In this document: positions 28,960-34,575 of the stretch, in pieces
Layout: the number at the start of each line of letters is the position of its first letter
How positions within the stretch are numbered: the stretch's first letter is position 1
From: Candidatus Methanoperedens sp.
Lineage (GTDB): Archaea > Halobacteriota > Methanosarcinia > Methanosarcinales > Methanoperedenaceae
Assembly (NCBI GenBank): GCA_028715885.1
Contig: JAQUQX010000017.1
Coordinates: forward strand, 1-34,575
Direction: 5' to 3'
DNA: 34,575 nucleotides
The notes under the pieces: generated by a model
Told to the model about the DNA's origin: nothing
Database searches by the model: none
Seen by the model: the letters and a program-made list of their open reading frames with translations, nothing else
Program-made: the position numbers and the translations under genes

Positions 28960-30267
28960 ATGCAACAGACAAAAATACTTTTAGATGAAAACGACATCCC
29001 GAAGAAATGGTACAACATCCTTCCCGATATGCCCACGCCTCTTTCTCCTCCTTTGAACCCCGCCACGAACGAACCTGTAGGTCCGAAAGACTTAGCACCT
29101 ATTTTTCCTATGGAACTTATCAGGCAGGAGGTAAGCCGGGACAGGTTCATACCAATACCCGATGAGGTTCGGGACATCTATGCGTTATGGCGTCCCTCTC
29201 CGCTTTACAGGGCGCATCGCCTCGAAGCAGCGCTCAAAACCCCGGCTAAGATTTATTACAAATACGAAGGCGTAAGCCCGGCAGGCAGCCACAAACCCAA
29301 TACCGCGATAGCCCAGGCTTATTATAACATGAAAGAGGGGATGCAGAGGTTAGCCACGGAAACAGGCGCAGGGCAGTGGGGAAGCGCGCTGGCTCTCGCT
29401 ACCAATTATTTCGGTCTTAAGTGCACGGTCTATATGGTGAAAATAAGCTACCAGCAGAAACCGTACCGCAAATCCCTGATGCACCTGTGGGGCGCGGATG
29501 TGATACCATCACCAAGCAAACTTACAAACTCCGGGAAAAAAATACTGGAAAAAAACCCAGATTCCCCGGGCAGTCTCGGAATTGCCATAAGCGAGGCTAT
29601 AGAGGATGCTGCGACCCATGATGATACGCATTATTCCCTGGGAAGCGTTCTTAACCATGTGATGCTTCACCAGACAGTGATAGGTCAGGAAGCGAAGGAG
29701 CAGCTTGCAGAGGTTGAGGAATATCCTGATTATATCATCGGATGCGTAGGCGGGGGCAGTAATTTTGCAGGAATAAGTTTTCCTTTCCTGATGGATAAGC
29801 TTGCAGGTAAAAAGGACGTAAACGTGGTTGCTGTTGAACCAACCGCATGCCCCAGCCTCACAGGCGGAGAGTTCAGGTACGATTTCGGTGACACCGTCGG
29901 CTTGACTCCGCTTTTGAAGATGTACACCATGGGGCATGAATACGTGCCGCCCGCAATCCATGCAGGAGGTCTGCGGTACCATGGTGATTCCCCTATCGTG
30001 AGCCAGTTATACGCCGATAAAGTGATAGACGCCGTGGCATACCACCAGACCGCAGTGTTTAAGGCTGCGGTGACATTTGCACGAAGCGAGGGCATTGTCC
30101 CTGCGCCGGAATCCTCACATGCCATAAAATGCGCAATAGATAAAGCGCTGGAATGCAGGAAGAGCGGCGAAAAGAAGACGATTCTCTTCAACCTGAGCGG
30201 GCACGGGCATTTTGACATGGGCGCATACGACAGCTATTTTAGCGGGACTATGAAGGATTCGGATTGA
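28960..30267 (+). CDS. trpB2: Tryptophan synthase beta chain, TrpB2 type
   Basis: 435 residues, longer than TrpB1 and typical of the TrpB2 group (PLP fold type II). It condenses indole with serine, or with phosphoserine in some archaea. The PLP lysine is K112 in [11 protein letters not shown] and the phosphate-binding loop is CVGGGSNF. The N-terminal block ([21 protein letters not shown]) and the insertion after [11 protein letters not shown] are TrpB2 hallmarks. No trpA or other trp gene is nearby, consistent with TrpB2 working alone or as an indole salvage enzyme. GAGGT precedes the ATG. Its end overlaps the next gene by 4 bases (TTGA). Family assignment is firm; the physiological role is uncertain, as for many TrpB2 proteins. 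Confidence 0.93.
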
Positions 30268-31517
30268 ACTGGATTGACAGGCTGTTTGGGAAAAAGGAAT
30301 CCTCGCCCCGGATAAAATTTGAGGAGCTTCCTCTCTGGCTTGAAGCGAAGTCGAAGAAAATATCCGAAGGAATCGGCAGGCAGGCTTCTTCTATATATTC
30401 CGACATCGATGGGGCGCTTTCGAAGATAAAAGAAAGCACAACATTACTTGAAGAAGCAGAGCCTGAGGGAAGATTTCATCTCAAAATGGTGAAGGTCGCC
30501 ACGACTAACAGGGATAACATGGCGCGGCAGGTCAGGATGCTTCTTGAGAACATAACCATCCCGCAGGCTGCTGATGTGAAAAGTGTGGCGGGTTTCCATG
30601 AAAATGCTATCCAGACGCTGACAGTATGCCTTGAAAACATGATGAAGAGCTACCAGTACACCAAATTAGTGTTTATTGAAGAATCAAAGCAGGTTATTGC
30701 TGATGTAAATGCGCTTGGAAGACTTTTGAATGAGCTTATAGAACCGGTTAATACCCAAAAAAATGTGCTGGATGCCATTGAAAATGCCCGCAGCATCATA
30801 AAAAACATCAAAAATATAAGTTCGGATATTGAAATTGGGGAAAAAGCGATAACAGAATACGGGGAAAGAATTGCCCTCCTGAATAAAGAGCTGGAAGGTA
30901 AGCAAACTGCCCTCACCCGCCTCAGGGACAGCGAATCCTGGAAACAATATAACAATTATAAAGATGAACTTGTTTTGCTTGAAATCAATGCCGGAAAAAA
31001 GGAAGCCGAAATTAAAGGGCTTATTTCGCCTCTTAATAAAGCTCTGGGCAGGCTCAAGCAGTTAAGCGATAGCGGCAGATATACCTTAAAACCTGAAATT
31101 AAGGAAGGATTAAATTTATGCTTATTATCTCCTCTAAATGTCGCTTCCGGGTTTTTTATTGAGTTCCAGAATATCGCTGCAAGCGGTGTTCTGAACATGA
31201 ATACTGAAAGAACAAATAAATTAATGGAACAGATACAAAATGTCGTGTCATCGTTGAATTCATCTAAAGAGGAATATCTGGCTCTTGTAAAGGATATTGA
31301 GCGGAAAAAAGATGAAATTTCAGGAATGAACATAGCTTTTGAAGAGACAGACATGACAAAGGGAATATCAGCCATGCAGGAGAAACTTGCAGGTCTGGAA
31401 ATCGAACTGGAAATATCGAAAAATCATGTTTCAGCTCTTAAAAACAATCTTGAATTAAAAATGCAGGACCTGCAGCGGAACATTTTCATCATTGATGACA
31501 AAATAAAGATATCCTGA
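30264..31517 (+). CDS. Coiled-coil protein of unknown function
   Basis: 417 residues, soluble and mostly helical. It opens with [20 protein letters not shown], followed by a conserved-looking [18 protein letters not shown] segment, then long heptad-rich helices (about 45-80, 125-270 and 325-410) separated by a less helical stretch near 285-300. No ATPase motif, signal peptide or metal site is visible, so it is not an SMC/SbcC protein, though it resembles such coils in composition. The start is TTG, overlapping the trpB2 stop as TTGA, so the pair is translationally coupled; the functional connection is unclear. A TTTCCT-GAA-AGGAAA stem-loop lies just after its stop. Confidence 0.75.
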
Positions 31518-31583: not shown

Positions 31584-31943
31584 ATGACAAACCTTCTATA
31601 TGTCCAGACAAGCGGAATCGATACGCCAGAACGCCTTTATTCGCCGTTTATCCTCGCCCAGACTGCAAAAGCGATGGGTATAGACGCTATCATCTATTTC
31701 CTCGGCATGGGTATAACGGTCGTGAAAAAAGGGAATGCTGAAAAGATAAAAATAGGTAAATTCCCCTCACTCAAGGAAGTAATGGACCAGACAGTAAAAG
31801 CTGGTGTTAAACTCATGGTCTGCGAACAGAGCACGCAGCTTATAAACCTTTCAAGGGGGGATTTTATCCCTGCGGCAGAGATAGTAGGAGCTGCCACGCT
31901 CAACGACCTGGTGCTTGAAGCAGATGGAACGATGTGGTTTTAG
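31584..31943 (+). CDS. DsrE-like sulfur-relay family protein
   Basis: 119 residues with the DsrE/DsrF/TusD fold signature: NLLYVQTSGIDTPERLYSPF at the start, a middle AIIYFLGMGITVVKKG, and KAGVKLMVCEQS with Cys80 at the position where DsrE-like proteins carry persulfide sulfur. It would act in the cytosol as a sulfur carrier. GGGAG precedes the ATG. It is the first of four closely spaced genes (gaps of 8, 15 and 8 bases) that continue with a rubredoxin-like protein, a desulfurase homologue and an IscU fusion, so a role in delivering sulfur for cluster assembly is suggested. Members of this superfamily also serve other purposes, so the relay role is an inference. Confidence 0.85.
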   Translation: MTNLLYVQTSGIDTPERLYSPFILAQTAKAMGIDAIIYFLGMGITVVKKGNAEKIKIGKFPSLKEVMDQTVKAGVKLMVCEQSTQLINLSRGDFIPAAEIVGAATLNDLVLEADGTMWF

Positions 31944-31951
31944 GAGGAATT

Positions 31952-32113
31952 ATGAAAATCCAGTGGAAATGTTCCCTGTGCGGATACCAGTTTGAGGGAG
32001 AACCCACGCCGCCAAAAAAGTGTCCTTCGTGTAAAGAAGCCTGCACTTTTATTGATGCCACCTGCTACATACCTGAATGCGAGGGACCAGAAGGCAGGGA
32101 CAGACGGATATAA
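31952..32113 (+). CDS. Rubredoxin-like / zinc-ribbon mini-protein
   Basis: 53 residues. Two Cys pairs (KCSLCGY at the start and KCPSCKEA in the middle) make a rubredoxin-type knuckle site for one Fe or Zn. Three more Cys follow (EACTF, ATCYI, PECEG), more than a plain rubredoxin has. GGAGGA stands before the ATG, overlapping the stop of the DsrE-like gene. It could donate electrons (if Fe is bound) or be structural (if Zn). Its place between a sulfur-carrier-like protein and the desulfurase homologue suggests it belongs to the Fe-S assembly group. Confidence 0.85.
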   Translation: MKIQWKCSLCGYQFEGEPTPPKKCPSCKEACTFIDATCYIPECEGPEGRDRRI

Positions 32114-32128: not shown

Positions 32129-33292
32129 ATGAGACCGGTTTACATGGATCATGGCTCAGCTTCGCCCGTTGATAGCTGGGTGCTTGAAGCCATGATGCCC
32201 TATTTTGATAAAGATATTGGGAATCCCTCCTCTCTTCACTCTTCAGGGAGGAAAGCCAAACGAGAGCTTGAAGCCGCACGCCGGAATGTCGCAAACCTTA
32301 TCGGCGCGCCGAACCCCAAAAGCATAATATTCACATCCTGCGCCACAGAATCGAACAATCTTGCGCTGCGCGGCGCTGCAATGCGCTACAAAGATAAGGG
32401 AAATCATATAATCACGACTTCCATCGAGCACATGTCCGTGATGAACTCCTTAAAAGACCTGCAGAGAAGCGGGTTTGAGGTCACTTATATCCCGGTGGAT
32501 AAAGACGGGCTTGTGAGCGCAGAGCAAATCAAGAACGCGATAACTGAAAAGACCATTCTCATCTCAGTGATGTACGCAAACGGGGAAGTGGGAACCGTGC
32601 AGCCGATACGGGAAATAGGGGAGATAGCATCCGATAAAAAAATATTATTCCATGTTGACGGGACGGCTGCTGTTGGCAAAGTGCCTGTAAATGTCGAAAA
32701 TGAACATATCGACCTTCTTGCGATTTCATCGAATGATATATACGGTCCCAAAGGCGCTGGCGCGCTCTATGTCAGGCAGGGTGTGAGAATACTCCCGTCC
32801 ATGTTGGGAGGAGGGCAGGAATCCGGTATGAGGAGCGGCTCTGAGAATATCCCGGGAATTGTTGGCATGGGAAAAGCCGCTGAGCTTGCTATGGCGGAAA
32901 TGGTTGATAACGGCGCGCGGCTTATCAGGATGCGCGACCGGCTGATAGACAATATCCTGAAAATGGAATATACGTATCTCACAGGCAGCAGGACAAAGAG
33001 GCTTCCCAATAATGCGAGCTTCCGTTTCAGTTTCATTGAAGGGGAAAGCATCATACTACAGCTTAACGACCTTGGAATTACGGCGAGCACCGGCTCTGCG
33101 TGCTCCACGAAAACGCTTGAGCCATCGCATGTGCTCATAGCCATGGGACTGCGGCATGAGGAGGCGCACGGTTCGCTACTGCTCACGCTTGGCAGGTCCA
33201 ATACAGAAGAAGATGTGGATTACGTGCTTGGCTCCGTGCCAGCAGTTGTGGCAAAGCTCAGGGCATTGTCGCCGCTATATCCGAAAAAATAG
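32129..33292 (+). CDS. Cysteine desulfurase homologue (IscS/NifS) lacking the PLP lysine
   Basis: 387 residues, full length for IscS/NifS. The fold is clear: YMDHGSASP start, TSCATESNN (69-77), IEHMSV with the PLP-stacking H101, D177 in HVDGTAAVGK, R235 in GMRSGSEN and the mobile-loop Cys325 in STGSACSTKTLE. The Schiff-base site, however, reads SSNDIYGPKG (200-209) where SGHKIYGPKG is normal: N202 and D203 replace the His-Lys pair. The usual Gln near D177 is also Ala180. From the literature I recall that Archaeoglobus fulgidus IscS likewise has Asp in place of this Lys, lacks desulfurase activity and instead offers its Cys as a cluster ligand to IscU. The same is likely here, with the IscU fusion 8 bases downstream. 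Confidence 0.9.
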   Translation: MRPVYMDHGSASPVDSWVLEAMMPYFDKDIGNPSSLHSSGRKAKRELEAARRNVANLIGAPNPKSIIFTSCATESNNLALRGAAMRYKDKGNHIITTSIEHMSVMNSLKDLQRSGFEVTYIPVDKDGLVSAEQIKNAITEKTILISVMYANGEVGTVQPIREIGEIASDKKILFHVDGTAAVGKVPVNVENEHIDLLAISSNDIYGPKGAGALYVRQGVRILPSMLGGGQESGMRSGSENIPGIVGMGKAAELAMAEMVDNGARLIRMRDRLIDNILKMEYTYLTGSRTKRLPNNASFRFSFIEGESIILQLNDLGITASTGSACSTKTLEPSHVLIAMGLRHEEAHGSLLLTLGRSNTEEDVDYVLGSVPAVVAKLRALSPLYPKK

Positions 33293-33300
33293 GTGAAATT

Positions 33301-34575
33301 ATGGAAGAACAATTCGAATATTCAGAAAAAGTCATGGAGCATTTCAGGAACCCGCGAAATGTGGGAGAAGTCAAGGACGCTGACGGGATTGGAAGGGTAG
33401 GAAATCCTGTATGCGGGGACTTGATGGAAATCCAGATAAAAGTCGAGAATAATATCCTGAAGGACGTGAAGTTCAAGACTTTCGGCTGCGGCTCGGCGAT
33501 TGCCACAAGCAGCATGGTTACGGAAATGGCAAAGGGTAAGACGCTTGAGGAAGCGCTTAAAATCACTCGCAGCGATGTGGCGGCTGAACTTGACGGCCTT
33601 CCTCCAATCAAGATGCACTGTTCAAACCTTGCGGCTGATGCCCTCCATGCAGCCATAAAGGATTACATGTCGAAAAAAGAAGAGCGGGCTAAAGTCGAGG
33701 CAGAGAAATATGATTTTGATGTGGTTATCGTAGGCGGAGGACCGGGCGGGCTGACCACTGGGATTTTATGTGCTTACCGGGGGCTTAAGACAGCAATATT
33801 CGAAGCTTCAAACTGGGGCGGTATCCTTTCATGGCTGTGCCCCACCAAGATGATTGAGAACTTCCCGGGACTATGCGAAAAAACAACATGCTCAGACCTT
33901 GTTGAATCATGGGTGAATGAGGCGAAGAAACTGAAGGTCGAACTGAAAAAGGAACGAGTGAATGAAATCACTCAGGATAAGAAAGTTATTACCGATAGCG
34001 GTGAGTACAGAGGGAAGGTTATTGTCCTTGCCACAGGCAGTTCTCCATCACAGGCGGGTGTTAAGGGCGAGGAAAAATTCAGCAAGGACGAGCGTGGAGT
34101 ATATTATTACGTGAGGAATCCTGAAAAGTTTGCGGGAAAGCGGGTTCTCGTTGTTGGCGGGGGCAATTCGGCTGTTGATGCGGCGCTTTCCCTGGCTGAT
34201 ACCGCCGACCTTATTACCATTGCGCACAGGAAGGATGAGCTGCGAGCCCTCCCGCATAAGCTTGAGCGCATGAAAGCGATGGACAAAATCAAGGTGCTGT
34301 ATAATACCGAAGTTCTTGAAATAGCAGGCGCGGAAAAAGTAGAGAAGGCGGTAATGCGGAACTTGAAAGAGGATGAAACGTTCCAGCAGGTGGTGGATGT
34401 GGTCGTACTGGCTGTCGGTTTGACCCCGAATACCGAGATTTTCAAAAAGCTGGGGCTTGGGATGGATGAGAAAGGCTACATCAAGACCGATAAAACGCAA
34501 AAGACTAACATAGACGGGATTTACGCTGTGGGCGACATAGCCTCGGACCTGCAGCTTGTCGTGGTCGCGGTGGCG
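33301..34575 (+). CDS. IscU scaffold fused to a thioredoxin-reductase-like flavoprotein (C-terminus outside window)
   Basis: At least 425 codons, open to the last base. Residues 1-125 are an IscU scaffold with all three cluster Cys: C38 (NPVCGD, with D40), C63 (FGCGSA) and C107 (MHCSNL). After a Lys/Glu-rich linker (~124-137), residues 138 onward are a thioredoxin-reductase-type flavoprotein: FAD motif VVIVGGGPGG (141-150), ATGSSP (244-249), NAD(P)H motif VVGGGNSAVDAAL (284-296) and terminal FAD motif GIYAVGDIAS. The redox CxxC that precedes the NAD(P)H motif in true thioredoxin reductases is absent (GVYYYVRNPEKF there), so electrons probably pass from NAD(P)H via FAD to another acceptor, as in TrxR-like ferredoxin-NADP reductases. 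GGTGA precedes the ATG. The two parts are in one continuous frame. Confidence 0.92.
   Translation, partial: MEEQFEYSEKVMEHFRNPRNVGEVKDADGIGRVGNPVCGDLMEIQIKVENNILKDVKFKTFGCGSAIATSSMVTEMAKGKTLEEALKITRSDVAAELDGLPPIKMHCSNLAADALHAAIKDYMSKKEERAKVEAEKYDFDVVIVGGGPGGLTTGILCAYRGLKTAIFEASNWGGILSWLCPTKMIENFPGLCEKTTCSDLVESWVNEAKKLKVELKKERVNEITQDKKVITDSGEYRGKVIVLATGSSPSQAGVKGEEKFSKDERGVYYYVRNPEKFAGKRVLVVGGGNSAVDAALSLADTADLITIAHRKDELRALPHKLERMKAMDKIKVLYNTEVLEIAGAEKVEKAVMRNLKEDETFQQVVDVVVLAVGLTPNTEIFKKLGLGMDEKGYIKTDKTQKTNIDGIYAVGDIASDLQLVVVAVA

Follow-up and report, generated by a model that had tools for sequence, protein, structure and literature searches.

A lysine-less IscS beside sulfur-relay genes in Candidatus Methanoperedens and other archaea: a possible persulfide dock in place of a cysteine desulfurase

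How does sulfur enter the clusters built on IscU when the accompanying IscS is not an active cysteine desulfurase? Archaeoglobus fulgidus is the standard case of this question, and the window, that is, the whole stretch of 34,575 nucleotides of Candidatus Methanoperedens sp. analysed here (contig JAQUQX010000017.1), raises it again. It carries a tight row of genes for a DsrE-like protein, a rubredoxin-like protein, IscS and an IscU-flavin reductase, separated by gaps of 8, 15 and 8 bases, and the IscS lacks the lysine that forms the Schiff base with PLP. A lysine-less, probably non-working IscS beside sulfur-carrier genes suggests a sulfur route other than cysteine breakdown, with DsrE and TusA as concrete candidate donors. 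The features of the row are as follows.

31584..31943, + strand: DsrE-family sulfurtransferase-like protein, 119 aa (PF02635, 64.9 bits against a cut-off of 22.7)
31952..32113, + strand: rubredoxin-like protein of only 53 aa, carrying two CxxC motifs (PF21349, 32.6 bits against a cut-off of 26.5)
32129..33292, + strand: lysine-less IscS/NifS-type protein, 387 aa (Aminotran_5, 246 bits; closest structure A. fulgidus IscS, 4EB5/4HVK)
32666..32668, + strand: Ala180 (codon GCT) replacing Gln183 (E. coli numbering)
32732..32737, + strand: Asn202-Asp203 replacing E. coli His205-Lys206, the latter being the PLP Schiff-base Lys (codons AAT 32732-32734 and GAT 32735-32737)
33101..33103, + strand: Cys325 (codon TGC), the mobile-loop Cys, kept (E. 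coli Cys328)
33179..33181, + strand: Leu351 replacing E. coli Arg354, the substrate-carboxylate Arg (alignment to E. coli IscS)
33301..33690, + strand: IscU/NifU_N domain (PF01592, 168.6 bits), with the cluster ligands C38, D40, C63, H106 and C107 all present
33700..34575, + strand: flavin reductase domain fused to IscU, TrxR/FNR type without CxxC (PF07992, 151 bits; PDB matches TrxR and FNR)

Residue equivalences were taken from an alignment to E. coli K-12 IscS (NC_000913.3). Codon reading and this alignment bore out the first-pass annotation in placing Asn202 and Asp203 at E. coli H205 and K206; the SSNDIYGPKG motif that it described was also found, at 32726-32755, one codon later than the interval 32723-32752 it had given. 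Its claims that the Gln near Asp177 (codon GAC 32657-32659, aligned with E. coli D180) is lost and that Cys325 is kept were likewise upheld, with Ala180 at Q183 and Cys325 at C328. The loss of the substrate Arg (R354 to L351) and the change of Asn155 to Gly152 were absent from that account. The Lys, His, Gln and substrate Arg of canonical cysteine desulfurases are thus represented by D203, N202, A180 and L351, and the persulfide-carrying loop Cys is present as C325, as judged by residue identity. Scores for TIGR03402 (501.8 bits, cut-off 530.75) and TIGR02006 (447.1 bits, cut-off 643.2) were both below the cut-offs. In E. coli IscS, the K206A, H104Q and Q183E variants have no desulfurase activity (PMC9978102).

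The best PDB sequence match of the window IscS was 4EB5 (E 2e-138), which has an identical SSNDIYGPKG and aligns without gaps at the motif. The AlphaFold2 model (pLDDT 91), in which the Cys325 loop is the least certain stretch, gave 4HVK, 4R5F, 4EB7 and 4EB5 as best fold matches, with TM-scores of 0.93-0.95. The precedent of A. fulgidus IscS, named in the first-pass annotation, therefore holds; according to the summary in PMC7585200, that protein is reported to be without desulfurase activity owing to the Lys to Asp change, and to provide a Cys as ligand to the IscU cluster.

A sequencing or assembly error as the source of the Asn-Asp (N-D) pair was ruled out, as orthologues in many genomes agree. 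Same-genus orthologues, retrieved by protein search rather than by motif, carry N-D, and dN (0.06-0.11) is far below dS (0.9-1.9; dN/dS about 0.04-0.07), indicating that the gene is under purifying selection; the change is therefore neither error nor chance. This selection bears on the idea that the gene is a degenerate paralogue heading for loss while a canonical enzyme does the work. The window's genome indeed also holds a canonical His-Lys IscS (AHKIYGPKG) followed by a normal IscU (C1:164752, L002), as well as a more distant SufS-like protein. Nevertheless, strong purifying selection, conservation over many archaeal groups, the intact gene row, and the presence of N-D IscS as the only IscS in some genomes make such decay highly improbable.

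When 84,980 species genomes were scanned for the N-D DNA motif, 117 stretches were obtained. Among the matches listed, these were mostly archaeal (Bathyarchaeota, Thermoplasmata, Hermodarchaeota, Hadesarchaea, Methanomassiliicoccales and ANME groups), together with a few bacterial bins. They included Candidatus Methanoperedens nitroreducens (L119), with the same gene order as in the window. N-D was present in 130 aligned sequences spanning many archaeal groups; beyond close relatives this set was retrieved by the N-D DNA motif, so that the frequency of N-D itself follows by construction, while the states of Gln, Arg and Cys and the neighbouring genes were not selected for. The Gln183 position was Ala in 119 of the 130 forms, the Arg354 position was mostly Leu, Gln, Val or Met, and the Cys328 position was Cys in all 128 sequences covering it. 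In contrast, Lys, Gln and Arg were kept in 66/66 His-Lys forms, a control set mostly of the same class and from genomes also carrying an N-D copy. The mobile-loop Cys is common to the N-D, His-Lys and His-Thr forms.

These losses have to be weighed against a residual or different PLP chemistry, in which the pocket would bind PLP and an unusual activity would depend on a Lys of the loop or on an amine from outside. N-D forms conserve T73, H101, D177 and S200, so that contacts to the PLP ring and phosphate remain, and in the title of 4HVK the A. fulgidus protein is termed an unusual L-cysteine desulfurase. The first-pass annotation had held that a different lysine in reach of PLP would speak against its reading. 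By alignment, no replacement Lys equivalent to K206 stands at or near that place in the window IscS. Only K109 and the loop residue K328 are enriched as Lys in N-D forms, the latter in 125/130 against 24/65, and because K328 sits inside the mobile Cys loop its approach to PLP is conceivable. Fisher tests gave p-values of 1e-36 and 4e-15; as they take no account of common descent, these values are not read as probabilities. Such chemistry is opposed by the loss of K206, Q183 and R354, by the further loss of the stacking His in the His-Thr form, and by a later A. fulgidus paper, cited in PMC7585200, which reports no desulfurase activity for a protein that carries loop K328 too. We therefore regard it as quite unlikely. 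Taken together, the residues and the published A. fulgidus work strongly indicate a loss of catalysis in N-D IscS. Probably many of the archaeal genes now labelled cysteine desulfurase do not encode such an enzyme, and misannotation of this kind has consequences for how early iron-sulfur assembly, and the sulfur metabolism of anaerobic methane oxidisers, are reconstructed.

The neighbouring genes offer a sulfur source. The DsrE-like protein combines a DsrE fold with a conserved Cys, the features of DsrE/TusD sulfurtransferases: its AlphaFold2 model (pLDDT 96) matched 3MC3 (DsrE/DsrF-like; TM-score 0.88), DsrEFH 2HY5 (0.80-0.83 to chains A and B) and TusBCD 2D1P, and its Cys80 (codon 31821-31823) was Cys in 80/80 DsrE neighbours of N-D IscS. 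The rubredoxin-like gene, starting 8 bases past the DsrE stop, was found in many same-genus loci. The IscU domain begins 8 bases past the IscS stop, and its cluster ligands were kept in all covering IscU sequences adjoining N-D IscS. The fused reductase is cut by the contig end at 34575; in relatives the full-length fusion has about 445-470 aa (e.g., L012 2665-4017). The fusion was seen in 68 ORFs, which come from the window's genus and from family f2 within its order; none of these ORFs contains a CxxC. Further upstream, a 417-aa ORF without Pfam or NCBIfam match (30264-31517, +) directly precedes the DsrE gene, and a TrpB-like PLP enzyme (NF009057; 28960-30267, +) lies two genes upstream of the cluster.

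The association with such genes is widespread. In loci with enough upstream sequence to judge, 106/119 N-D IscS genes had DsrE and/or TusA next to them, but none of 64 His-Lys genes did. Where both kinds occurred in one genome (23 sampled genomes), relay genes stood beside the lysine-less gene in 21 and beside the His-Lys gene in none. No literature linking DsrE or TusA to a lysine-less IscS was found in a search of mainly open-access papers, and this near-exclusive link appears to be new. Some N-D genes that lack a neighbouring DsrE have an orthologue of it elsewhere in the genome; in several other genomes none was found, and most of these loci have TusA beside IscS. TusA is not adjacent in the window's own cluster but is encoded elsewhere in the same genome, where two clusters of TusA and DsrE-family genes (G000:C62:6367-7670 and G000:C14:35766-36627) are possible trans partners. 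Gene linkage supports a co-function of lysine-less IscS with DsrE/TusA, although it would also fit an outward flow of sulfur from IscS, or regulation.

The linkage also bears on the view that IscS is a structural ligand only, binding IscU while Cys325 ligates the nascent [2Fe-2S] cluster, with free sulfide as donor and DsrE/TusA acting elsewhere. Such a role is reported for A. fulgidus IscS-IscU (4EB5/4EB7), according to the summary in PMC7585200; IscU lies downstream in 91/119 N-D loci, and the related SMS system can take its sulfur from sulfide (PMC12192291). However, this view leaves unexplained why DsrE/TusA adjoin lysine-less but never His-Lys genes. Moreover, in Thermoplasmata and some other lineages IscS adjoins DsrE and TusA genes without an IscU alongside, so IscU binding is not the whole role in such lineages. 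In two Thermoplasmata loci (L099 814-3740; L104 4260-7070), in neither of which an adjacent IscU was found, the N-D IscS gene is preceded by a LarC-like nickel insertion gene, and TusA or DsrE lies in between. We consider a ligand-only role unlikely, and the first-pass argument that retention of Cys325 points specifically to a ligand is not established, as the adjoining DsrE/TusA genes give an equally direct reason, namely persulfide relay.

We therefore propose, with a probability of roughly 0.55, that the lysine-less IscS is a non-catalytic dock whose Cys325 takes persulfide from DsrE/TusA and passes it to IscU, with the reductase giving electrons. The IscS fold and mobile Cys loop would be kept, while internal aldimine formation and cysteine processing would be lost; in place of desulfurase chemistry, the loop would be charged from DsrE/TusA. 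Persulfide on the linked DsrE protein, plus TusA in many lineages, would be handed to Cys325, which may deliver it to IscU or hold it on IscU during cluster formation, and in the window's lineage the reduction of S0 to sulfide may draw its electrons from the flavin reductase fused to IscU. Inward sulfur flow and this electron step are deduced, and Cys325 could in addition act as a cluster ligand, which is compatible with relay.

Several lines of evidence support the relay proposal. K206, H205, Q183 and R354 are lost together while Cys328 is invariant in N-D forms, and relay genes adjoin most N-D but no His-Lys loci. DsrE Cys80 is invariant and the IscU ligands are intact. On E. coli IscS, docked TusA places its Cys19 close to Cys328 (PMC2854127). 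The crystallised A. fulgidus IscS and its paralogue adjoin dsrE or tusA-dsrE, the genomes of A. fulgidus and a relative have only N-D IscS, and a second lysine-less form also adjoins TusA-DsrE2. The proposal is weakened by the genomes in which no DsrE orthologue was found, by the missing TusA neighbour in the window, and by the partial conservation of the residues that contact TusA in E. coli (R55 is kept in N-D IscS; W45, E49 and R237 are variable). With these candidate donors, the question of sulfur supply can be put to the test in vitro using only a handful of small proteins.

The second lysine-less form has His-Thr at the PLP site. It was found in 28 genomes of a family of the same order, f5 (inferred to be Methanosarcinaceae; loci L265 2403-4906, - strand, and L293-L320), with Gln changed to His, the stacking His to Asp, and Arg and Cys kept. 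TusA-DsrE2 lies upstream in 21/28 and Thi4 in 6/28. In L265, IscU has an extra C-terminal FeS_assembly_P domain. There are also Tyr-Lys forms (L261 2070-3296, +; L262 3115-4335, -), with Lys kept, Gln changed to Asp and Arg to Leu, and followed by a distant IscU. A quick tree grouped Asn-Asp, His-Thr and one Tyr-Lys row against the His-Lys forms (SH-aLRT 99), and a smaller careful tree without the Tyr-Lys row gave the same grouping a support of 74/88. The His-Thr forms sit on a long branch, and a single clade of Asn-Asp forms was not rejected (p-AU 0.27). Lys may have been lost more than once, giving Asn-Asp in one case and His-Thr in another, with relay genes accompanying each loss. The broader proposal, that archaea widely use an ISC-type assembly without cysteine desulfurase, in which DsrE/TusA charge the Cys of a dead IscS for transfer to IscU, with the fused reductase as electron source in Methanoperedens and relatives and Lys loss perhaps repeated, is more tentative, and we give it somewhat less than an even chance.

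Compared with known systems, the window IscS is by its sequence an ordinary member of the A. fulgidus IscS family (4EB5/4HVK), and the substitution itself is therefore already known. A. fulgidus IscS (4EB5, 4EB7, 4HVK; D199K mutant 4R5F) likewise has SSNDIYGPKG with Asp at the PLP-Lys place, Ala for Gln, Leu for Arg, the loop Cys, and adjoining DsrE and IscU. The rubredoxin-like gene, the IscU-flavin reductase fusion and a canonical His-Lys IscS in the genome are found only on the window's side. Genome G170 is in effect A. fulgidus, its L046 protein being 99.7% identical to crystallised 4EB5; this gene sits in dsrE-iscS-iscU and the paralogue (L035) in tusA-dsrE-iscS-iscU. In G170 and its relative G140 only N-D IscS was found, with no other homologue at E <= 1e-20. 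For Methanosarcina acetivorans IscS1, too, absence of the Lys is reported, and four extra neighbours are listed with unknown function (PMC7585200); it is probably the His-Thr form with TusA and DsrE2, a match made by inference and not by name.

In E. coli, IscS works with TusA and TusBCD in the tRNA thiolation relay (3LVJ), and the partners are of the same kinds: a Cys loop, TusA and a DsrE/TusD-type protein. Cys328 there passes persulfide to IscU and TusA (PMC2854127; PMC11302051). However, E. coli IscS makes persulfide from cysteine and exports it, whereas the window IscS is predicted to be unable to make persulfide, which is why an inward flow of sulfur is proposed. The archaeal MIS system (MisS-MisU) resembles the window in its two-gene IscS-IscU core without chaperones, and in the 31584-34575 gene row IscS and IscU are indeed adjacent with no neighbouring HscAB. 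MisS is described as a cysteine desulfurase, whereas the window form, judged from its residues, is without the catalytic set.
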